Source of the DNA: Oscillospiraceae bacterium
GTDB lineage: Bacteria > Bacillota > Clostridia > Oscillospirales > UBA929
Direction: 5' to 3'
Assembly: GCA_009777255.1 (NCBI GenBank)
Contig: WRMG01000009.1
Coordinates: 1 to 40,757 of the forward strand
DNA: 40,757 nt
Every line of letters begins with the position of its first letter. Position 1 is the stretch's first letter. Below are positions 10,266 through 21,505 of the stretch, piece after piece. The translations under genes were made by a program, and so were the position numbers. Under the pieces are notes generated by a model that did no database searches, was not told where the DNA came from, and saw only the letters and a program-made list of their open reading frames with translations.

Positions 10266-11213
10266 ATGATTGAAGTACAGGGACTAACAAAATCCTACGG
10301 CAAAAACCGCGGCATATCAGACTTAACCTTTTCCATCGCCGAGGGCGAGATCGTCGGTTTCCTCGGCCCAAACGGCGCCGGTAAAACCACAACTATGAAC
10401 ATCCTCACGGGCTATCTCCCGCTCGGCGCCGGCAGCGCCAAGGTCGCGGGCATCGACATCATACGCGACCCGACCGGCGCAAAAAAACACATCGGATACC
10501 TGCCCGAGCATCCGCCGCTCTACCTCGGCATGACGGTCAGGGAATATCTCGACTTCGTGTGCGGGCTGAAGGGCGTTAAAACCGCGGACAGAAAGGCGCA
10601 TGTCGCCGCGATTGTTGATATGGTCGGCCTTTCCGACGTTTTCAGCCGCGTTATCGGACACCTGTCAAAGGGCTACCGCCAGCGCGTTGGTCTGGCTCAG
10701 GCGCTTGTCGGCGACCCCGACGTGCTTGTGCTGGACGAGCCGACGGTGGGCCTCGACCCCCGCCAGATCGTCGAGATACGCAACGTCATCAAGGACATGG
10801 GCAAAAGCCGCACGATAATCCTCTCAACCCACATTCTGCCCGAGGTGTCCGCGGTGTGCGAGCGCGTGCTGGTTATCTCCGACGGCGTCATCGTCGCCGA
10901 CGGCAAGCCCGAAACCCTTACGACGGCGCTGTCGAACGAGCGCGAGCTTATCGTCCGCGTCGCCGGCCCCAAGAATAACGTCCTGCAACTGTTAAGAAGT
11001 CAGGACGGCGTAAAGAGCGTAAATCACGTGGGCGATATGGAGCCCGGCAGCTCAGACTTCCTGCTGGAAAGCCAGCCCAACACCGACATCCGCAAGCCGC
11101 TGTTCAACCTCTTGGCCCAGGCGGGCTGTCCCATACTTATGCTGCGCCCGCAGAACGCGACGCTGGAGGAAGTATTCCTTAAATTGACGGCAAAGGAGGA
11201 GCCCGCACAATGA
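10266..11213 (+). CDS. Gld-type ABC transporter ATP-binding protein
   Basis: Cytoplasmic ATPase of an ABC exporter, 315 residues. It has Walker A GPNGAGKTT (34-42), signature LSKGYRQR (133-140), Walker B VLVLDEPT (153-160) and the switch histidine in STHILPE. The C-terminal extension (about 225-315) is as in GldA/CcmA-like proteins. Start ATG at 10266 with AGGAGGG at 10254-10260; a longer frame begins inside flhB and is not used. It is 19 bp from flhB on the same strand with no terminator visible, and overlaps the permease gene by 4 bp (ATGA). Sequence resembles the GldA family, but there is no reason to assume gliding in this organism. Confidence 0.9.
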   Translation: MIEVQGLTKSYGKNRGISDLTFSIAEGEIVGFLGPNGAGKTTTMNILTGYLPLGAGSAKVAGIDIIRDPTGAKKHIGYLPEHPPLYLGMTVREYLDFVCGLKGVKTADRKAHVAAIVDMVGLSDVFSRVIGHLSKGYRQRVGLAQALVGDPDVLVLDEPTVGLDPRQIVEIRNVIKDMGKSRTIILSTHILPEVSAVCERVLVISDGVIVADGKPETLTTALSNERELIVRVAGPKNNVLQLLRSQDGVKSVNHVGDMEPGSSDFLLESQPNTDIRKPLFNLLAQAGCPILMLRPQNATLEEVFLKLTAKEEPAQ

Positions 11214-13339
11214 CATCGGTTCTAAAAAGAGATTTCAGGGCGTATTTCACCTCGCCCATCGGTTATATTTACATCGGCGCGTATATCCTTGTGCTAAACC
11301 TTGTCTTTTATCTGGAAAACGCGCTCAGCCAGTCCGCGTCCGTGGCCGGAGTGTTCAGCTTCATGCTGATGGTCATGATGTTCACCACGCCGCTCTTAAC
11401 CATGCGCGTATTCTCCGAGGAATATAAACAGCGCACCGATCAGCTGCTGCTGACGACGCCCGTGCGCACCTTCGATATAGTAATGGGCAAATTCCTCTCC
11501 GCGCTGCTCGTCTTTGCCGTGCTGCTGGGGCTTACGCTGACATGGCCGCTCATCATCTCATTTCTGGGCGACCCCAACGCCGCCGAAATCTTCGGCAACT
11601 ACGCCGGCATCCTCTGTATCGGCGCCGCCTATATCGCCATGGGCATATTCATCTCATCGCTGACAGAGAATCAGGTGGTCGCCGCCATCGGCTCGCTGGG
11701 CCTGTTCCTCGGGCTTTACCTGCTCGAGATCATCGCCGCGTACTTTTTCAGCAGCGGCGCGCTTCCCCTTTGGATCATGTCGTCGATCAGGTTCATCTCC
11801 ATCATCGGGCGCTTTAACACCGTTTCCGTCGGCATACTCGCGCTGGGCGACATCGTGTTTTTCCTCAGCGTTTGCGCCGTGTTCCTGTTCCTGACGGCGC
11901 GCCGCTGGGACCGGCAGCGCGGCTTCAGTATCCTGATCACCGCTATCTTCATCGCCGGAATCGTGCTGGTAAATGTTCTGGCAAACCAGCTTACAACCCG
12001 CTTTTACCTGAAGCTCGACTTGACCGAACAGGGCATTTACACCCTGTCCGACGAAACCCTCAATGTCCTGCGCGGCTTGGACGAGGACGTCACAGTCACA
12101 GTCCTCGCCGAGGAATCCGTCTGGCGCGTGGACAGGCGCAGCCAGCTTGTCGAAACCCTTGAGCGTTATTCCGCCCATTCCGGCGGGCGCCTGAGCGTAA
12201 AATATATCGACCCGCTGCTAAACCCCCGTATCGGAGAGCAGTACCCCGCGCTCGAGGGCCTGACGGAGGGCGACATAATCATCGAATCCGCAAGACGCTA
12301 CACCTCGATCGCATGGCGCGACCTGTACGAGTGGGCCGTTGATTACAACACCTATTCCACCTACGCGTCCCAGCTGAAGGCCGAACAGCCCCTGACCTCC
12401 GCGCTGCTGTTCGCGCTCTCCGACAAAACCGCGCTGGCGGTGTTCCTCGAGGGCCACGGCGAGGATTCGACCGAGGCGCTCCAAGCCCTCTTTGAGCGCG
12501 CCAACTACAATTGCCAAACACTGAACCTCTCTCATGAGGAGCTGCCGCCCGACACCACCGTCGTCGTGTCCAACGCGCCGAAAAGCGACTTCACCGAAAT
12601 CGAGCTGGAACGCTTCGAGTCGTATCTCAACGACGGCGGAAACGCCATCATCATGTACAGCATAACAACCCCCGACCTCCCCCGCCTCGACCTGTACCTC
12701 GAGGAATGGGGTATCTCGGCGGAGCCGCATATGGTCATGGATTCACAGTACAATTACAACGCCCTGTTTGCCATCGCCGCCGTTGCCGGCCGCCCCGAGT
12801 CCCTGCCGTCAACACAAAATATCGACATTCAAAGCCGGTACGTCTTTTTAAGCGGCGCGCGCGTGATTACGGCCCTGTGGCCCACCGGCGAGCGCTACCA
12901 GCGCAAATCCGTTCCGATTGTCGCTTCAATGCCCGGCACCTCATACTCCAAGGATTTCAGCGACCCCGAGTCCATCGAAACCATGGAGCGGACCTCCGAG
13001 GACGCCATCGGCCCGTTTATACTGGCAATGATAACCACCGACACCAACACGGCGTCCCGCACCCCCTCCAATCTGGTTGTCACCAGCGCCAGCTTCGTCA
13101 GCGACATGGCGCTTGACCCCAGCGCGCCGTTCCTGAACTCACAGCTTATCGGCGCGATCGCCAGCGACTTCAACCCCTCCGGCAGCAGCGTCATCATCCC
13201 GGGCAAGGCGCTTGCCGGCACGGTTCTGACCATATTGGCGGGTCAGGCCCGCATGATTCTCATTCTCCTCGTCATCGTCATGCCGCTCCTTATCCTCGCC
13301 GCGGGCGTCGTGACATGGCGCAAAAGGAGGAGCCTATAA
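11210..13339 (+). CDS. ABC permease fused to GldG-like extracytoplasmic domain
   Basis: Single chain of 709 residues. Residues 1 to about 235 form an ABC-2/GldF-type permease with six membrane helices (YFTSPIGYIYIGAYILVLN, RVFSEEYKQRTDQLLLTTP). A further helix (about 238-262) is followed by TRFYLKLDLTEQGIYTLSDET, the start of a GldG-type ABC_transp_aux domain. A final helix near 680-700 anchors the C-terminus. GldF and GldG are separate proteins in Bacteroidetes. The gene overlaps the ATPase gene by 4 bp and the next gene by one base (TAATG). Substrate unknown; a cell-envelope role is inferred only from the family. Confidence 0.85.
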   Translation: MTSVLKRDFRAYFTSPIGYIYIGAYILVLNLVFYLENALSQSASVAGVFSFMLMVMMFTTPLLTMRVFSEEYKQRTDQLLLTTPVRTFDIVMGKFLSALLVFAVLLGLTLTWPLIISFLGDPNAAEIFGNYAGILCIGAAYIAMGIFISSLTENQVVAAIGSLGLFLGLYLLEIIAAYFFSSGALPLWIMSSIRFISIIGRFNTVSVGILALGDIVFFLSVCAVFLFLTARRWDRQRGFSILITAIFIAGIVLVNVLANQLTTRFYLKLDLTEQGIYTLSDETLNVLRGLDEDVTVTVLAEESVWRVDRRSQLVETLERYSAHSGGRLSVKYIDPLLNPRIGEQYPALEGLTEGDIIIESARRYTSIAWRDLYEWAVDYNTYSTYASQLKAEQPLTSALLFALSDKTALAVFLEGHGEDSTEALQALFERANYNCQTLNLSHEELPPDTTVVVSNAPKSDFTEIELERFESYLNDGGNAIIMYSITTPDLPRLDLYLEEWGISAEPHMVMDSQYNYNALFAIAAVAGRPESLPSTQNIDIQSRYVFLSGARVITALWPTGERYQRKSVPIVASMPGTSYSKDFSDPESIETMERTSEDAIGPFILAMITTDTNTASRTPSNLVVTSASFVSDMALDPSAPFLNSQLIGAIASDFNPSGSSVIIPGKALAGTVLTILAGQARMILILLVIVMPLLILAAGVVTWRKRRSL

Positions 13340-14748
13340 TGCCGCGCAGCCGCGTAATATTGATCAGCGTATGTATCCTCGCCGTGCTGGGCGCGGCGGT
13401 CGTGATTCTCGCGCTGACGGGCGGGGACGGCGCGGAACCGGCCGTCTCCCCCCCTCCCATTATCGACAACGCCGATTTGTTCGACCTCTTAAACCTCACC
13501 AACGCCGACGTCAAAAGCGTCTCCTTCTCCGGCGGCGGGCTGTCCTATACCGTCACCCGCGACTCCGACGGCGAGCTGACCATGGCGGCAAGCCGCGCGC
13601 TGTTTCCGTTCCAGCCGTCAGTCGTAACCAGCGTCTTTAACTCCGCGATCCGGCTCACCCAGCTGAAACGCGCCGCCGCAAACGCCGACGACGCGGCCCT
13701 CGCCGGCTTCGGACTTGACGACCCCGCCATGGTCTGGAACATCTCGCTCGCCGACGGCTCCGCCGTCCGGCTGGCGCTGAGCGAAAAACTGCTGGCGCGC
13801 TATGTTCACATCGTCGGTCAGCGCGACGTCTATATTCTCGAGGATTATCAGGCCGACAGATTATGCCGCCCGCTGGAGCAGTTCTATGACCTTTCGTTCC
13901 TGCCCGAATACATCACACCCGCGACCGAGGAGGAATACACCTGGGGCTGGTTTACCCGCTTCGCCTTAACGGCGCCCGGGCGCGAAATCGAAATCCGCCG
14001 CGCCGGAGCGGAGTTCTCCGAGGGCTACAAAATGTATCTGCCCGCCGAAACGGACATCAATCAGGGCGTCGCCGTCAACAGCTTCTTTATCCCTATCACA
14101 ACCGTCAAGCCGTCCGAGCTTGTCGAGATAAACCCCGCCGACCTGTCAAAATACGGGCTGGACAACCCCGTCCGCTTGGAGCTTAACGACGAAGAGGGCT
14201 GGTCCGGCACACTTTTAATCGGCAGAAAAAACGAAACAAACGACGGCCAATATGTCATGATTGAGGGCAAAAACGCCGTACTTCTTGACAAATCCGGCGA
14301 CTACATCTTTACCGAAACGCCCTATTTCCGCCTGCGCCTCGGCCTAATCTGGTCCCATAACATCGACACCGTGCGCTCGGTGGATTATCACCTCGACGGC
14401 ACCTCGCGCCGCCTTGTGCTGTCGCACGGCGACCCGTTCGGCGGCGACCTCGACGGCAAGGAACTCTCCGAAAGCGACACGCGCCGCCTTTATGCCTCCG
14501 TTTTAGGTATCTTTATCGACGGCGAAACCGACGCGGACATCCCCGCCGCGCCGCCGGAATACCGCTTCGTCATCACGCTGACAGACGGCGGCTCCCACAC
14601 GCTCGAGCTATACGCGCTGAACGAACGCCAATTCCTGTTCGTGCTAGACGGCGAAAACCAGCGGCTGATTACCTACAAAACAACGCTGACCACCAGCCTG
14701 CTGGACAAATTCGATCTGCTCGACCAAGGCATCGAACTGCCGCGGTGA
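13339..14748 (+). CDS. DUF4340-like protein of the Gld-type ABC locus
   Basis: Predicted membrane-anchored protein of 469 residues with one N-terminal helix (about 5-28) and a long outside domain. The sequence has repeated beta-rich segments, e.g. LADGSAVRLALSEKL and LNDEEGWSGTLLIGRKN, with LSKYGLDNPVRLEL, a pattern typical of DUF4340 proteins found next to GldG-like genes. Start ATG at 13339 overlaps the previous stop (TAATG), with AAGGAGGAG at 13324-13332. It is likely an accessory part of the same exporter. No enzyme motif was recognised. Confidence 0.75.
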   Translation: MPRSRVILISVCILAVLGAAVVILALTGGDGAEPAVSPPPIIDNADLFDLLNLTNADVKSVSFSGGGLSYTVTRDSDGELTMAASRALFPFQPSVVTSVFNSAIRLTQLKRAAANADDAALAGFGLDDPAMVWNISLADGSAVRLALSEKLLARYVHIVGQRDVYILEDYQADRLCRPLEQFYDLSFLPEYITPATEEEYTWGWFTRFALTAPGREIEIRRAGAEFSEGYKMYLPAETDINQGVAVNSFFIPITTVKPSELVEINPADLSKYGLDNPVRLELNDEEGWSGTLLIGRKNETNDGQYVMIEGKNAVLLDKSGDYIFTETPYFRLRLGLIWSHNIDTVRSVDYHLDGTSRRLVLSHGDPFGGDLDGKELSESDTRRLYASVLGIFIDGETDADIPAAPPEYRFVITLTDGGSHTLELYALNERQFLFVLDGENQRLITYKTTLTTSLLDKFDLLDQGIELPR

Positions 14749-15312: not shown

Positions 15313-15341
15313 TTGACATGGGCGTTTTGGCGTGATACAAT
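15313..15341 (+). promoter_or_regulatory. Sigma-A promoter of the riboswitch-controlled CDF gene
   Basis: TTGACA (15313-15318), 17-bp spacer, TACAAT (15336-15341) with TG at 15333-15334 forming an extended -10. Transcription would begin near 15348, exactly at the start of the riboswitch aptamer. Confidence 0.85.
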
Positions 15342-15347
15342 GGCCGT

Positions 15348-15436
15348 ATACTGAGCAGGCGATAAACCGGTTGCGGTTTGTGGGGCTGGGCCGCGGTTGC
15401 GCGGCAGCAGATAATGGCATCTGTGGGACAGAGTGT
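15348..15436 (+). promoter_or_regulatory. NiCo (czcD) riboswitch aptamer
   Basis: Leader RNA that binds Ni2+/Co2+ and raises expression of metal exporters. The conserved core is visible: GAGCAGGC (15353-15360) near the 5' end and TGTGGGACAG (15422-15431) near the 3' end, joining four helices. P1 ATACT/AGTGT (15348-15352/15432-15436), P2 ATAAACC/GGTTTGT (15362-15368/15375-15381), P3 GCCGC/GCGGC (15390-15394/15401-15405), P4 CAGAT/ATCTG (15408-15412/15419-15423). The layout matches what I recall of the crystallised NiCo aptamer. It precedes a CDF metal exporter, the classic partner of this riboswitch. Confidence 0.88.
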
Positions 15437-15464
15437 TGTTCCCGGGTGCTTTTTAATTTTTTTA
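15417..15464 (+). terminator. Riboswitch expression platform: intrinsic terminator
   Basis: GCATC (15417-15421) plus GGGA (15425-15428) can pair with TCCC (15440-15443) plus GGTGC (15445-15449), followed by TTTTTAATTTTTTT. This hairpin uses the 3' half of P4 and the conserved GGGAC core of the aptamer, so aptamer and terminator exclude each other. Metal binding should therefore block termination and switch the CDF gene on. Confidence 0.8.
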
Positions 15465-15478
15465 AGGGGGCGCTGCCT

Positions 15479-16357
15479 GTGAGTAAAACAAACGAACAGA
15501 TTGCCGTGCGCGTGTCGGTCAATACCATTGTCGTCAATGTCATACTGTCCGCGTTCAAGCTGTTCGCCGGTATCTTCGGACAGTCGGCGGCGATGGTGTC
15601 CGACTCGGTACACTCGCTGTCCGACGTTCTCAGCACCGGCGTTGTGATTGCCGGCGTTAAGCTGGCGAACCGGAAGCCGGACAAGGAACACCCCTATGGA
15701 CACGAGCGCTTTGAGAGCGTGGCCGCGATAATCCTGTCTGTCGTGCTGCTTGCCACGGGCGCGGGCATCGGCTGGTCGGCCGTCGGGAAGATAGCGGCGG
15801 GCAGCTACGGCGATATAGCCGTCCCCGGGACGATAGCGCTTGCCGCGGCGGTGGTTTCGCTTGTGGTTAAAGAGGCGATGTACTGGTATACGTGGGCGGC
15901 GGCGAAAAAAATCGACTCGAGCGTGCTGATGGCCGACGCGTGGCACCACCGCACGGACGCGCTGTCGTCTATAGGCAGCTTTGCCGGGATTCTGGGCGCG
16001 CGGCTCGGATTCCCCATATTCGACCCCATAGCGAGCGTTGTCATATGCCTGTTTATATTAAAAGCGGCGTTTGATATATTCCGCGACGCCGTCGGGAAAA
16101 TGACCGACAAGGCGGCGGACGATAAAACGGAGGAGGAAATGCGCCAAAGCATACTCTCCCATAAAGATGTTGCCGGAATAGATCTGCTGAAAACGCGGCT
16201 GTTCGGCGATAAAATATATGTGGACATTGAAATCGGCGTTGACGGGGCCATGACGCTGAACGACGCGCATGACGTGGCGCAGCGCGTCCATGATGTTATC
16301 GAGGAAAGGTTCCCTAAGATAAAGCATTGCACTGTGCATATAAATCCTGTGAAGTAG
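15479..16357 (+). CDS. Cation diffusion facilitator, predicted Ni/Co exporter
   Basis: Inner-membrane metal/proton antiporter of 292 residues. Six membrane helices in the first 200 residues are followed by a cytoplasmic C-terminal dimerisation domain ending KIKHCTVHINP. Metal-site motifs: HSLSD in helix 2 and HHRTD in helix 5, both H-x3-D, the four-ligand set seen in CzcD/ZitB-like carriers; the loop motif HPYGHERFES follows helix 2. The start is GTG at 15479 with AAGGGGG 8 nt upstream; longer frames run through the riboswitch and are rejected. The NiCo riboswitch in its leader makes Ni2+/Co2+ efflux the best guess, although the protein motif alone would also fit zinc. Confidence 0.92.
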   Translation: MSKTNEQIAVRVSVNTIVVNVILSAFKLFAGIFGQSAAMVSDSVHSLSDVLSTGVVIAGVKLANRKPDKEHPYGHERFESVAAIILSVVLLATGAGIGWSAVGKIAAGSYGDIAVPGTIALAAAVVSLVVKEAMYWYTWAAAKKIDSSVLMADAWHHRTDALSSIGSFAGILGARLGFPIFDPIASVVICLFILKAAFDIFRDAVGKMTDKAADDKTEEEMRQSILSHKDVAGIDLLKTRLFGDKIYVDIEIGVDGAMTLNDAHDVAQRVHDVIEERFPKIKHCTVHINPVK

Positions 16358-16419
16358 CCGCTATTTCCCGACGGTTTTTGCTTGAAGCCTGTCCCTCCGG
16401 TACTGTAGAATACTTGCAT

Positions 16420-16445: not shown

Positions 16446-19028
16446 ATGGAAAAAACAGCTTGGCATACGCTGACGCTGAGAGAATGTATGCGCCGCCTTG
16501 ACGCGCGGGAGAGCGGGCTTGACGCGGGGCAGATAAGCGCGCGCCGCGCGGAACACGGCGACAACGAGCTGCCGCGGGGCAGGCGCAGGCCGTTGGTTTC
16601 TATATTGCTTGCCCAGTTCTCGGACCTGATGATATGGGTGCTGATGGCGGCGGCGGCGCTGTCGGCGCTGATGAGGGAGCCGGTGGATACCGCGATAATC
16701 ATGTTCGTTGTGATTGTCAACGCCGTGCTGGGCGCCGTTCAGGAGTCAAAGGCGGAGCATGCGCTGGAGGCGCTGAACAAAATGACGGCCCCGACGGCAA
16801 AGGTCATACGAGGCGGCGCCGTACATAAGATACCCGCGCGGGAGGTGACTGTCGGCGATATAGCCGTTTTGGAGGCGGGCGACAGCGTTCCCGCCGACAT
16901 AAGGCTTATTGAGTGCCACTCGCTTAAAGCGGAGGAGTCGGCGCTGACCGGCGAGTCTGTCCCTGTGGAAAAGCTGTGCGTTGATTTGAGTGACGCCGCC
17001 GCGCCGCTGGGCGACAGGTTGAATATGGTGTATATGGGCACGGCGGTTACATACGGGCGCGCGACGGGCGTTGTATGCGAGGTCGGCATGTCAACCGAGA
17101 TGGGAAGCATAGCCGGACAGCTTGCCCTGTCGGGGAGAGAGACGACGCCGCTGCAAAGAAAGCTCAATCAAATATCCCGCGCGCTGTCCGTCGGCGTGCT
17201 GTGCGTCGCGGCGGTGATATTCGGCATTTCGGTTTTAATGAAAGGCTGGGGCAGTATTCAGGATTCGTTTCTGCTCGCGGTTTCGCTGGCTGTGGCGGCC
17301 ATACCCGAGGGTATGGTCGCCGTTGTCACGATAGTTTTGGCGATGGGCACCCGCCGGATGGCGGCGAAGGGCGCCGTCATACGCAGGCTGCCCGCTGTGG
17401 AAACGTTGGGCTCGACGCAGGTTATCTGTTCCGACAAGACGGGGACGCTGACGCAGAACCGCATGACCGTGCGCGAAATCTTCAGCGCCGACGAGGATAT
17501 ACTGCGCGGCGCGATGCTGCACTGCAACGACGCCGCGCTCGGCGGCGGCGGTGTGACGGTCGGCGATCCAACCGAAACGGCGCTGCTGGATTATCTGCTT
17601 GACAAAAACTATATAAAAGCGGATAATATAAGGGGGCGTGTGCGCGCGGGCGAAATACCCTTTGAATCCGAGAGAAAGCTGTCAACGGTCGCCGTCAGGA
17701 CGGACGGCGGCATAAGGGTTTTCGTAAAGGGCGCGCCGGACACCCTTTTCAGCCGCTGTACGGCGGGCGATATACGCGCCGCCGCGGAGGCGAACGAGCG
17801 CATGGCGAACAGCGCGCTGCGCGTTCTCGCGTTTGCCTATAAAGATGTCGCGCGCGCGAACTTTAACGATGTCGCGGGAACGGAGAGCGGGCTGACCTTC
17901 TGCGGGCTTGCCGGAATGTACGACCCGGCGCGTCCCGAGGCGAAAGCCGCAGTCGCCGCGTGCCGCGAGGCGGGGATAGTCCCCGTTATGATAACGGGCG
18001 ACCATAAGGCCACCGCCGTGGCTATCGCCGGGGAGCTGGGGATACTGGGCGACGGCCGCCGCGCCGTCACGGGGCAGGAGCTGTCGCAGATGAGCGACGG
18101 CGAGCTGGAGAAGGAGGTCGCGCACATCGGCGTTTACGCCCGCGTCGCGCCGGAACACAAGACGCGCATAGTTTCGGCATGGCGGAAAAAGGGCAAAACG
18201 GTGGCGATGACCGGCGACGGCGTTAACGACGCGCCCGCGCTGAAAGCCGCAGACATCGGCGTCGGCATGGGGATCGCGGGCACGGATGTTTCAAAGAGCG
18301 TGTCGGATATGGTGCTGACCGACGACAACTTCGCCACGATAGTTTCGGCCGCGGGCGAGGGGCGGCGCATTTTCGACAACATACACAAAACGGTCAGGTT
18401 TCTGCTCTCGTCCAACGCGGGCGAGGTCATAGCCATATTAGCCGCCACTTTGCTTAACTGGAACCTGCTGGCGGCGATCCATATACTGTGGGTCAATCTT
18501 GTCACCGATTCGTTTCCGGCGCTGGCGCTGGGAGTCGAGCCGGCGGAGAGCGATATTATGACGCGCGAGCCTCGAGATCAAAAGGTGCCGTTCTTTACGG
18601 GACGGGAATGGGGCCGGATACTGACTGTGGGCGCGTTTGAGGCGCTGCTGACGCTGGGCGCTTATCTTTTGGTCGGCGGCGGCGTTTTGGGGACGACGAT
18701 GGCGTTTCTCACGCTCTCGCTGTCACAGCTGTTTGCCGCAGTGGGGTTCCAGTCCGAGCGTAGCAGCGTGTTTAACCTGAAGCTGAGGGAGCATCCCTTT
18801 TTATGGCTTTCGTTTTTCGGCTCCGCCGCGCTTCAGGTTTCGGTCGTTTTGATACCGCCGCTGCGCGATATTTTCCGGCTGGCGCCGCTTGACTGGCTGA
18901 ACTGGATGCAGGTTATAGCGCTGTGCCTGTGTATGCTGTTATTCATAGAGATACAGAAATGGGCCGCAAAGGCTGAAAGAAAGTTTATAAGCGGAGGGTT
19001 TTATGAAAAACGCACCCATAGACTATAA
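16446..19028 (+). CDS. P-type cation-transporting ATPase, P2A (Ca2+-type)
   Basis: Membrane pump of 860 residues. Order: N-terminal cation ATPase domain, helices M1-M2, actuator domain with TGES (ALTGESVPVEK), M3-M4, phosphorylation site DKTGT (Asp330), nucleotide domain with KGAPD, hinge TGDGVNDAPALK, then M5-M10. Calcium-site residues resemble SERCA: N and E in SSNAGE (M5) and N, T, D in WVNLVTDSFPA (M6). In M4 the usual PEGLP reads PEGMV, so the glutamate is kept and the proline is lost. The last 26 bp overlap the next gene. Ca2+ (or possibly Mn2+) export is inferred. It lies 88 bp after the riboswitch-controlled CDF gene. Confidence 0.9.
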   Translation: MEKTAWHTLTLRECMRRLDARESGLDAGQISARRAEHGDNELPRGRRRPLVSILLAQFSDLMIWVLMAAAALSALMREPVDTAIIMFVVIVNAVLGAVQESKAEHALEALNKMTAPTAKVIRGGAVHKIPAREVTVGDIAVLEAGDSVPADIRLIECHSLKAEESALTGESVPVEKLCVDLSDAAAPLGDRLNMVYMGTAVTYGRATGVVCEVGMSTEMGSIAGQLALSGRETTPLQRKLNQISRALSVGVLCVAAVIFGISVLMKGWGSIQDSFLLAVSLAVAAIPEGMVAVVTIVLAMGTRRMAAKGAVIRRLPAVETLGSTQVICSDKTGTLTQNRMTVREIFSADEDILRGAMLHCNDAALGGGGVTVGDPTETALLDYLLDKNYIKADNIRGRVRAGEIPFESERKLSTVAVRTDGGIRVFVKGAPDTLFSRCTAGDIRAAAEANERMANSALRVLAFAYKDVARANFNDVAGTESGLTFCGLAGMYDPARPEAKAAVAACREAGIVPVMITGDHKATAVAIAGELGILGDGRRAVTGQELSQMSDGELEKEVAHIGVYARVAPEHKTRIVSAWRKKGKTVAMTGDGVNDAPALKAADIGVGMGIAGTDVSKSVSDMVLTDDNFATIVSAAGEGRRIFDNIHKTVRFLLSSNAGEVIAILAATLLNWNLLAAIHILWVNLVTDSFPALALGVEPAESDIMTREPRDQKVPFFTGREWGRILTVGAFEALLTLGAYLLVGGGVLGTTMAFLTLSLSQLFAAVGFQSERSSVFNLKLREHPFLWLSFFGSAALQVSVVLIPPLRDIFRLAPLDWLNWMQVIALCLCMLLFIEIQKWAAKAERKFISGGFYEKRTHRL

Positions 19029-19770
19029 GCGATGGTACGACGCGGCGGATTCCCGCGTGTCCACGCGCAGGTTCGGCGGGGCGCCGGAGGCGGACGAGCT
19101 TGAGCGGCTGGAGCTGCTGGCGGCGGCTCTCGCGGGCGACGGCATAAGGATAAAAATCGCCGCAAGCACGCCTAAGCTCTTTTCCGGCCTGATGGCGAGG
19201 AGCATAAAAAATGCCGCGTATGCCGCGCTGCTTGTCGGAAAGGACGGCTCTCCCAATGTCCGCGCGGGGTACAAGGGCGAAGCGCTGGTGCTTGAGGCCA
19301 CGGCGATGGGGCTGGCCACCTGCTGGATAGCGGGGACGGTGAACCGGCGCGAGGCGCGCGGGATAGCGGCGCTTGAGGAGGGCGAGAGCCTGCTCGGGGT
19401 GATCGCCGTGGGAAAACCGGAGCAGCCGCTTGAGCGCATACCCGACGGCGAACGCAAGCGCAAACCGCTGGAAAAGCTGGTGCAGTCCGAAAAGGGCGCG
19501 TCGCTCGCGGATATTCTGCCGTGGCAGAACACCGCACTGAAATGCGCGCGCATAGCGCCGTCGGCCATGAACATGCAGCCGTGGCGGTTCGCGTGCGCCA
19601 AGGACGTTATCTGCATGGTCGCGTCGGGGATATTCGATAAAAGCGCCGAGCTGGACTTGGGTATCGCCATGCTGCACATAGATTTGGGGGCGGCGGTCGG
19701 GGGCGTCCGCGGCTCATGGGGAGTTGACGGCGCCGTGTGGGTGTTCTCCGTCGCTGATGCTGATGCGTAA
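19003..19770 (+). CDS. Nitroreductase-like flavoprotein
   Basis: Putative FMN-dependent oxidoreductase of 255 residues, resembling the TM1586-type nitroreductase fold (two half-domains in one chain). Features: DSRVSTRRFGG near the N-terminus (family start motif R-x-S-x-R-x-F), GYKGEALVLEATAMGLATCWIAG in the middle, and APSAMNMQPWRFAC near residue 190, the FMN/substrate contact region P-S-x-x-N-x-Q-P-W. Start ATG at 19003 with GGAGGG at 18992-18997, inside the end of the ATPase gene. The substrate is unknown. The start of the LRR gene overlaps its end. Confidence 0.8.
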   Translation: MKNAPIDYKRWYDAADSRVSTRRFGGAPEADELERLELLAAALAGDGIRIKIAASTPKLFSGLMARSIKNAAYAALLVGKDGSPNVRAGYKGEALVLEATAMGLATCWIAGTVNRREARGIAALEEGESLLGVIAVGKPEQPLERIPDGERKRKPLEKLVQSEKGASLADILPWQNTALKCARIAPSAMNMQPWRFACAKDVICMVASGIFDKSAELDLGIAMLHIDLGAAVGGVRGSWGVDGAVWVFSVADADA

Positions 19771-21505
19771 AAAAAGAAAAAAATTCGATATAAAAAGATT
19801 TATACGCACGGTGATAACATTGGCGGTGCTTGCCGCCGTGGCCGCCGGAGCGGTTATCGGCACGCCTATAGTTATCTCCGGCTACAGAAGGACCCAAGCC
19901 GAGCGCGCGATTGAGGCCGGCCGGCCGGAGCGCGCCATTGAGCTGCTGCTGCCTGAGCTTGACCGCACGCCCGGGGACACGGAGCTGAGGCTGGAGATAA
20001 TAGATTTATATATAGAAACAGGCAACTATTCCCGCGCGGAATATCTGCTTTATCACGGCTCGCTGGAAAGGGCGGGACAGGTCGAGCTGTACCGCCGGCT
20101 CAGCTATGTTTATGTACAGCAGGACAAGCTGCACGAGGCCGTGGCGCTTATCAGCGGCATGAACAACCCGAATATCCGGTCGGCGCTAGAGGCGGAGCGC
20201 CCGCCGCCGCCTGTTTTCGACCCGCCGCCCGGGGATTACCGCGAGGCGCTGACAATATCCGTCACGGTGCGCGAAGGCGATACATGCTATTTATCGCTGA
20301 GGGGCGAGGTGCCGTCGCTTTCGGACGGGTATTCGGAGCCGTTAATTCTGCCGCAGGGGATCACGGAGATAATGGCCGTGTCCGTTTCGCCCGAGGGGAT
20401 TGCGTCGGACTGGGCGGTCATGCGGTACCGTCTTGACGACGTGATCGAACCGGTTATTTTCGAGGACGCGGTTATAGAGAGAATCGCCCGGGAAATGCTG
20501 GACATACCCTCGGGGATTATAATAAGCGACAAATTGCAGACCATAACCGAGCTTGTGATTCCCGAGCCGATGAACTATAAGACGCTAAACGACCTCCGCC
20601 ATTTCTCGCGGCTTGAAACACTGAAGCTGGTCGGCAGCGGCGCGGCCGTGGATATTTCGGCGCTGGGATACCTGTACCGGCTGAAAACGCTGAGCCTTAC
20701 GCATTTCGGGATAGATTCGTTCTCGCTGGACTCGGTGGGGCAGGTCGAATGGCTGGAGCATCTTGACCTGTCCGACAATAATATTGTTATGCTCGAGCCG
20801 CTCGGGGCCTTGCTCTCGCTGAAAACGCTGGTGTTAAACGCGAACAACATACTTGACCTTACGCCGCTTTCGGGGCTTGTGTCGCTTGAAAGGCTGAGGC
20901 TCAATCAAAACGCCGCGGAGAGTACGCGCCCGCTGTCGGGCATGATAAATTTAGTTGAGCTGGAGCTGTCGGAAAATCTTATCAGCGCGCTGGTGGGGCT
21001 TGCGCCGATGAAAAAGCTGAGGACCTTGGATTTAAGCGTCAACTCTATCGGAAACGGGGAATTGGAGTATTTGGCCGGATTGCCGGCGCTGGAAACGCTG
21101 GACTTATCCATGAACCGCTCGCTGGGCGGCCTGTCGCCGCTGGGCGGAATAAGAAGCCTTGGGAGCCTTACCGCCAACAACTGCGCAATAGAGTCGCTTG
21201 AGGGGCTGGAGGAGCTTGACCGCCTGACATTTTTATCCGTTAACGAGAATCTGCTGGAGTCGTTCGAGGGCATACAGGCGGCGGAATCGCTGAAAACCCT
21301 GTGGGCAAACAAAAACGCGGTAACGACGCTCCAGCATATCTCGCTGCTGGAACAGCTTGAGGAGCTGCATATAGAGCATAACCAGCTGGTAAACCTGAGC
21401 CGGATAAGGGAACTCCCGTCGATCAAAAAGGTATACGCGTTCGGGAACCCCATAACTCAGACCGTAACGTTTGAGGAAGGCGTTGAGGTATACGTGGGGA
21501 GGTGA
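19763..21505 (+). CDS. Membrane-anchored leucine-rich-repeat protein
   Basis: About 580 residues. A basic start (RKKRKKFDIKRF) and one helix (about 14-38) suggest an N-in, C-out anchor. Next come TPR-like helices (AERAIEAGRPERAIELLLPEL), a chitobiase-C-terminal-like beta domain around FDPPPGDYREALTISVTVREG, then about ten leucine-rich repeats of the internalin type (LEHLDLSDNNIVMLEPLG, LKTLVLNANNILDLTPLS). The start is uncertain: ATG at 19757 or 19763 overlaps the nitroreductase stop, and a TTG at 19724 has no good ribosome binding site. A surface recognition or scaffolding role is inferred from the repeats; no catalytic motif was seen. Confidence 0.82.
   Translation: MRKKRKKFDIKRFIRTVITLAVLAAVAAGAVIGTPIVISGYRRTQAERAIEAGRPERAIELLLPELDRTPGDTELRLEIIDLYIETGNYSRAEYLLYHGSLERAGQVELYRRLSYVYVQQDKLHEAVALISGMNNPNIRSALEAERPPPPVFDPPPGDYREALTISVTVREGDTCYLSLRGEVPSLSDGYSEPLILPQGITEIMAVSVSPEGIASDWAVMRYRLDDVIEPVIFEDAVIERIAREMLDIPSGIIISDKLQTITELVIPEPMNYKTLNDLRHFSRLETLKLVGSGAAVDISALGYLYRLKTLSLTHFGIDSFSLDSVGQVEWLEHLDLSDNNIVMLEPLGALLSLKTLVLNANNILDLTPLSGLVSLERLRLNQNAAESTRPLSGMINLVELELSENLISALVGLAPMKKLRTLDLSVNSIGNGELEYLAGLPALETLDLSMNRSLGGLSPLGGIRSLGSLTANNCAIESLEGLEELDRLTFLSVNENLLESFEGIQAAESLKTLWANKNAVTTLQHISLLEQLEELHIEHNQLVNLSRIRELPSIKKVYAFGNPITQTVTFEEGVEVYVGR

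Follow-up and report, generated by a model that had tools for sequence, protein, structure and literature searches.

The leader of a cation diffusion facilitator (CDF) exporter gene in an Oscillospiraceae bacterium is, with high confidence, an ON riboswitch that belongs to the NiCo (czcD) class and works by transcription attenuation; by analogy with that class it would bind metal and thereby permit read-through into the gene. It lies in a stretch of 40,757 nucleotides (contig WRMG01000009.1) of a gut-type Clostridia genome, referred to as the window. An aptamer, a terminator that overlaps it, the gene behind them and a conserved arrangement of these parts are all found, and the leader is an ordinary member of the NiCo/czcD class in front of a textbook target gene. 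It adds to the class a clean member whose lineage, within the Clostridia, is uncultured. The positions of its parts and of the genes that follow are collected in the table.

The first-pass annotation, made from the letters alone, had placed the leader in this family and proposed a search with the Rfam covariance model. That search returned a match to RF02683, the NiCo model, of 55.9 bits (E 2.7e-10) over the full model (1-96), well above the curated cut-off of 37 bits, which confirms the assignment and excludes chance as the source of the match. Apart from it, Rfam matches nothing in the window but a tRNA, and the assembled sequence of the genome (64% complete) contains no second NiCo match. 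Most relatives score higher (60-88 bits). Both core segments named earlier stand where they had been placed, GAGCAGGC at 15353-15360 and TGTGGGACAG at 15422-15431. The four helices of the family are borne out as well, since P1-P4 form at -33.4 kcal/mol when the aptamer is folded on its own (15348-15433) and the model match spans them all.

In an alignment of 44 NiCo sequences, every invariant column is kept in the window copy, including the GA-CAG 5' strand, the GGG between P2 and P3, the CA before P4 and the GGGAC before P1, and 19 of the 25 consensus pairs change on both sides. P1 is weak in the window copy, with three of its four pairs formed and an A-A in place of the fourth. By comparison with the solved Eba riboswitch (PMC7689651), the GGG strand presumably corresponds to G45-G47 and the GGGAC strand to G87-G88, the residues that would make up the two halves of the metal site. 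The NiCo family as described (RF02683; Furukawa et al. 2015; Erysipelotrichaceae structure PDB 4RUM, per PMC7689651) shares with the window the aptamer fold, the conserved G strands, a terminator laid over P4 and the metal site, the position in a leader and a metal exporter as target. The window copy differs in its short leader, in which the -10 box lies right against P1 and the model's upstream letters ACAGUACAA are absent, in a P1 that is one pair shorter and in a short P4 loop.

Table. Features of the NiCo leader and the genes behind it (window coordinates).
Feature	Position	Strand	Basis
Promoter TTGACA-17-TACAAT, TG before -10	15313-15341	+	11 of 12 consensus letters
NiCo (czcD) aptamer, helices P1-P4 around a junction	15343-15433	+	RF02683, alignment
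P1	15351-15353/15429-15431	+	aptamer-alone fold
P2, main helix	15362-15369/15374-15381	+	aptamer-alone fold
P3	15390-15395/15400-15405	+	aptamer-alone fold
P4	15407-15412/15419-15424	+	aptamer-alone fold
GGG strand linking P2 and P3, one presumed half of metal site	15388-15390	+	unchanged in all 44 homologues
GGGAC strand linking P4 and P1, presumed second half of metal site and 5' arm of terminator	15425-15429	+	invariant in 44 of 44
Intrinsic terminator hairpin over P4 3' strand, GGGAC and P1 3' strand	15416-15450	+	fold
Terminator T runs (TTTTT AA TTTTTTT)	15450-15454, 15457-15463	+	sequence
Shine-Dalgarno-like AAGGGGG	15464-15470	+	sequence, 8 nt before GTG
CDF exporter, 292 aa, GTG start at 15479	15479-16357	+	Pfam, TIGR01297
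P2-type cation ATPase, SERCA/PMR1-like	16446-19028	+	TIGR01116/TIGR01522 above 600 bits, below equivalog cut-offs

The terminator hairpin has 15 pairs and one bulge and folds at -19.2 kcal/mol (z = -4.5 against shuffles). Its stem has the extent given in the table if the terminal G-U pair is counted and runs from 15417 to 15449 without it, the latter being the span that had been predicted together with its reuse of P4 and GGGAC. Because the hairpin takes up the 3' strands of P4 and P1 along with GGGAC, it excludes the aptamer. The full leader (15348-15464) folds into the terminator form (-46.8 kcal/mol in all), and folds of the growing chain favour the aptamer as far as about 15436 and, once 15448 is reached, the terminator. 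The naked fold favours the terminator form over the aptamer form by 13.4 kcal/mol, so that any advantage of the aptamer must come from metal and from kinetics. In the class, transcription terminates without metal and reads through with it (PMC7689651, PMC7917058); the ON-switch proposed from the first pass agrees with the overlap found here, the direction being that of the known mechanism. RNA polymerase would thus start at about 15348, and P1-P4 would form before the 3' arm of the terminator exists. Enough metal on both G-rich strands of the junction would lock P4, GGGAC and P1 and block the terminator, the polymerase would read through and the CDF exporter would be made, which would then bring the metal level down again. 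Without metal, the stabler hairpin would strip P4 and P1, and transcription would halt in the T runs.

This architecture recurs in relatives. Among 47 NiCo hits collected from the order and class of the window, 46 have the 3' strand of P4 and GGGAC paired to an arm that lies downstream, ahead of a T run, the sole exception having Ns in its T run, so that nearly all members of this set have a terminator that overlaps the metal-binding strand. A first, loose shuffle control was uninformative, with 45% of controls passing. A stricter test separated the two: 42 of 46 NiCo hits passed, as against 66 of 2300 controls made by shuffling the letters that precede the T run. In one locus (L010, 1597-1660) the NiCo terminator carries a long extra hairpin inside its loop and folds at -40.6 kcal/mol.

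Transcription had been predicted to start at the first base of P1, which is plausible with a margin of about 2 nt. Between the end of the -10 box (15341) and the start of P1 (15350/15351) lie 8 nt, and from the spacing of the TTGACA-17-TACAAT promoter a start at about 15348, at P1 or 1-2 nt before it, is plausible. For comparison we took the 22 leaders that lack the 5' element described below and have a recognisable promoter. The -10 box lies 5-8 nt before P1 in seven of them (the window included, and two near-identical), and since six other short leaders share this geometry, a start within 2 nt of P1 is reasonable. Leaders with the 5' element mostly have their -10 box about 40 or 60 nt before P1. 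The window copy, judged by its leader sequence, belongs to the short-leader subset of NiCo.

The CDF exporter was rightly named as the target. Its gene stands directly behind the terminator and encodes both CDF domains (Pfam Cation_efflux, 3e-48; ZT_dimer, 1.3e-23; TIGR01297, 237 bits). By sequence it has the same fold, dimerisation domain and A-site positions as YiiP/FieF (PDB 5vrf, 3h90) and the MamB/MamM models. Mapped on YiiP, all four A-site ligands are present, as H-D-H-D (HD-HD) where YiiP has D-D-H-D, whereas at the zinc C-site, H,H,H,D in YiiP, the window protein and its clade have D,E,H,N. The P2-type ATPase gene begins about 90 nt past the CDF stop. No terminator-like site was found in this gap, a weak promoter-like site lies at 16382 before the ATPase, and transcripts from the riboswitch promoter may run on into the ATPase gene. 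A CDF-ATPase operon as a conserved unit was considered and set aside, the arrangement occurring in no related locus. Upstream (11210-14748) lie a fused GldF-GldG-like ABC permease/auxiliary protein and then a DUF4340 protein, and further downstream (19724-21505) a protein with TPR and leucine-rich repeats, possibly of the surface or envelope.

The metal that is sensed, Co/Ni or Fe(II), cannot be read from sequence. The first-pass annotation held that the riboswitch allows Ni/Co to be assigned to a transporter whose own sequence would suggest zinc, and neither half of this argument is supported. The family also responds to Fe(II) and its cognate metal is disputed, and NiCo RNAs in the class precede CDFs with HD-HD and with ND-DD sites as well as P-type ATPases, one of which was checked and matches P2-type models. 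As for zinc, HD-HD does not specify it: this is the commonest CDF quartet, is common to zinc and iron clades and has little power to predict the metal (PMC5703985). An attempt to assign the metal from the transporter itself, by mapping HD-HD, the second shell and the C-site, was likewise given up, the signatures of iron clade 2 and of zinc both being found only in part. Six NiCo copies (L017, L018, L118, L121, L123, L124) stand upstream of ND-DD CDFs, which are manganese-type, an observation that bears on the ligand debate.

The switch may therefore be the same and its Ni/Co name misleading, with Fe(II), perhaps also Mn(II), as the metal relevant in the cell and the CDF as an iron exporter. 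We consider this reading evenly poised. A review (PMC7689651) gives anaerobic affinities of Eba RNA, measured by Xu and Cotruvo, of 61 nM for Ni, 120 nM for Co, 93 nM for Zn, 400 nM for Fe(II) and 11 uM for Mn. It reports that several of these metals activate in E. coli, states that only Fe(II) and Mn(II) are available enough in cells to bind, and calls the cognate metal unclear. Metalation calculators put the occupancy of the RNA at 74.6% for Fe(II), 0.01% for Co and zero for Zn (PMC9434800), and further literature describes the NiCo/czcD family as Fe(II)-responsive or its ligand as debated. The genes that NiCo RNAs precede in the class, ND-DD CDFs and P2-type ATPases among them, favour Fe(II) too. 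The best specific models for the window protein are those of MamM and MamB, the magnetosome iron CDFs, although at 192.9 and 188.6 bits it stays far below their equivalog cut-off of 350 and is not assigned to either. Similarly, the iron-linked CDF clade 2 has the HD-HD quartet too, but the signature of that clade combines it with Asp14, Asn18 and His22 (PMC5703985), and the window protein, with T14, D18 and H22, agrees at one of the three positions. Against Fe(II) stand the responses in Clostridium of Furukawa et al. 2015, which, as cited in PMC7689651, were to Ni/Co and not to Mn or Zn.

A zinc-responsive switch for a zinc exporter, as HD-HD might suggest, is improbable: HD-HD does occur in clades shown to transport zinc (PMC5703985) and Zn(II) binds Eba RNA in vitro at the affinity given above, but the zinc C-site ligands of YiiP are altered throughout the clade of the window protein, the calculated availability of Zn leaves the RNA unoccupied and, in the citation just mentioned, Zn drew no response. 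Returning to Fe(II), we tentatively put forward that the short-leader NiCo RNA may act as a sensor of Fe(II) overload in an anaerobic host and that the HD-HD CDF may export Fe(II), a proposal somewhat more open to doubt. If the Fe(II)-sensor reading is true, the whole CDF clade, mostly NiCo-linked in Clostridia, would consist of exporters of iron rather than of zinc or cobalt. The NiCo-linked clade is in any case a good subject for the question of Co/Ni against Fe(II).

NiCo was found in 20 of 146 genomes of the order of the window and in 51 of 391 of its class. It stands shortly upstream, on the same strand, in 51 of the 80 closest CDF homologues from other species, which makes this one CDF clade largely NiCo-linked. 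Among the same-family and same-order relatives searched, the closest CDFs (71% identity in G009, 67% in G021) both have NiCo. Of two genomes from the same genus, G001 lacks NiCo as well as a close orthologue, its CDF being a distant one (32%), and the search of G002 found neither NiCo nor a relative of the window CDF. Three more distant family members (G004, G005, G007; 57-59%) have the CDF and lack NiCo. This pattern of presence and absence suggests that riboswitch and exporter tend to travel together. The G009 locus (same family; L015/L129) resembles that of the window in its CDF, in a NiCo with overlapping terminator and in a promoter near P1, and differs in a shorter P2 and in its core, UUGAACAGAC as against CUGAGCAGGC in the window.

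Upstream of 20 NiCo-less CDF homologues, a search for other metal riboswitches found no metal-responsive family, only tRNA and rRNA. Two CDF homologues without a NiCo match (L052, L069) seem to retain P4/GGGAC and the terminator with the rest of the aptamer gone, and two others (L089, L090) seem to retain weaker fragments of the terminator side or of the 3' element described below, in each case as if the aptamer had been lost. That the window copy too is a decayed aptamer, followed by a terminator or attenuator that acts constitutively, is highly unlikely: its score is below average, its P1 is weak and the remnants in L052 and L069 offer a precedent, but it keeps all the invariant columns and strong P2-P4 helices, and none of promoter, terminator and gene is missing.

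Two further conserved elements flank other NiCo leaders. A 5' element, CUCUUUGCACUGCAU (also written CTCTTTGCACTGCAT), occurs near the predicted 5' end in 69 of 98 NiCo leaders and in 11 of 923 control stretches, and sits 15-60 nt upstream of the aptamer (L101, L104, L107, L110, L115, L031, L082 and others). Its exact 14-mer is present in 14 of 291 class genomes, in 10 of these beside a NiCo hit by position. It lies outside the Rfam model and is absent from the window leader. A 3' element, AGUGCCAUAGAGCUAUC (also written AGTGCCATAGAGCTATC), occurs between the terminator and the start codon in 27 of 98 NiCo leaders and in 1 of 244 controls, in the same set of loci (L101, L104, L107 and others). 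The two are complementary (GCACU with AGUGC, CUCU with AGAG). A conserved long-range helix of CUCUUUGCACU with AGUGC-CAU-AGAG was considered and rejected: the two sequences match as complements, but the 5' strand shows almost no variation and hence no covariation, and the window lacks the helix. Judging from their complementarity, it is possible that in the leaders that carry both elements these form an outer helix, one that would arise only after read-through.
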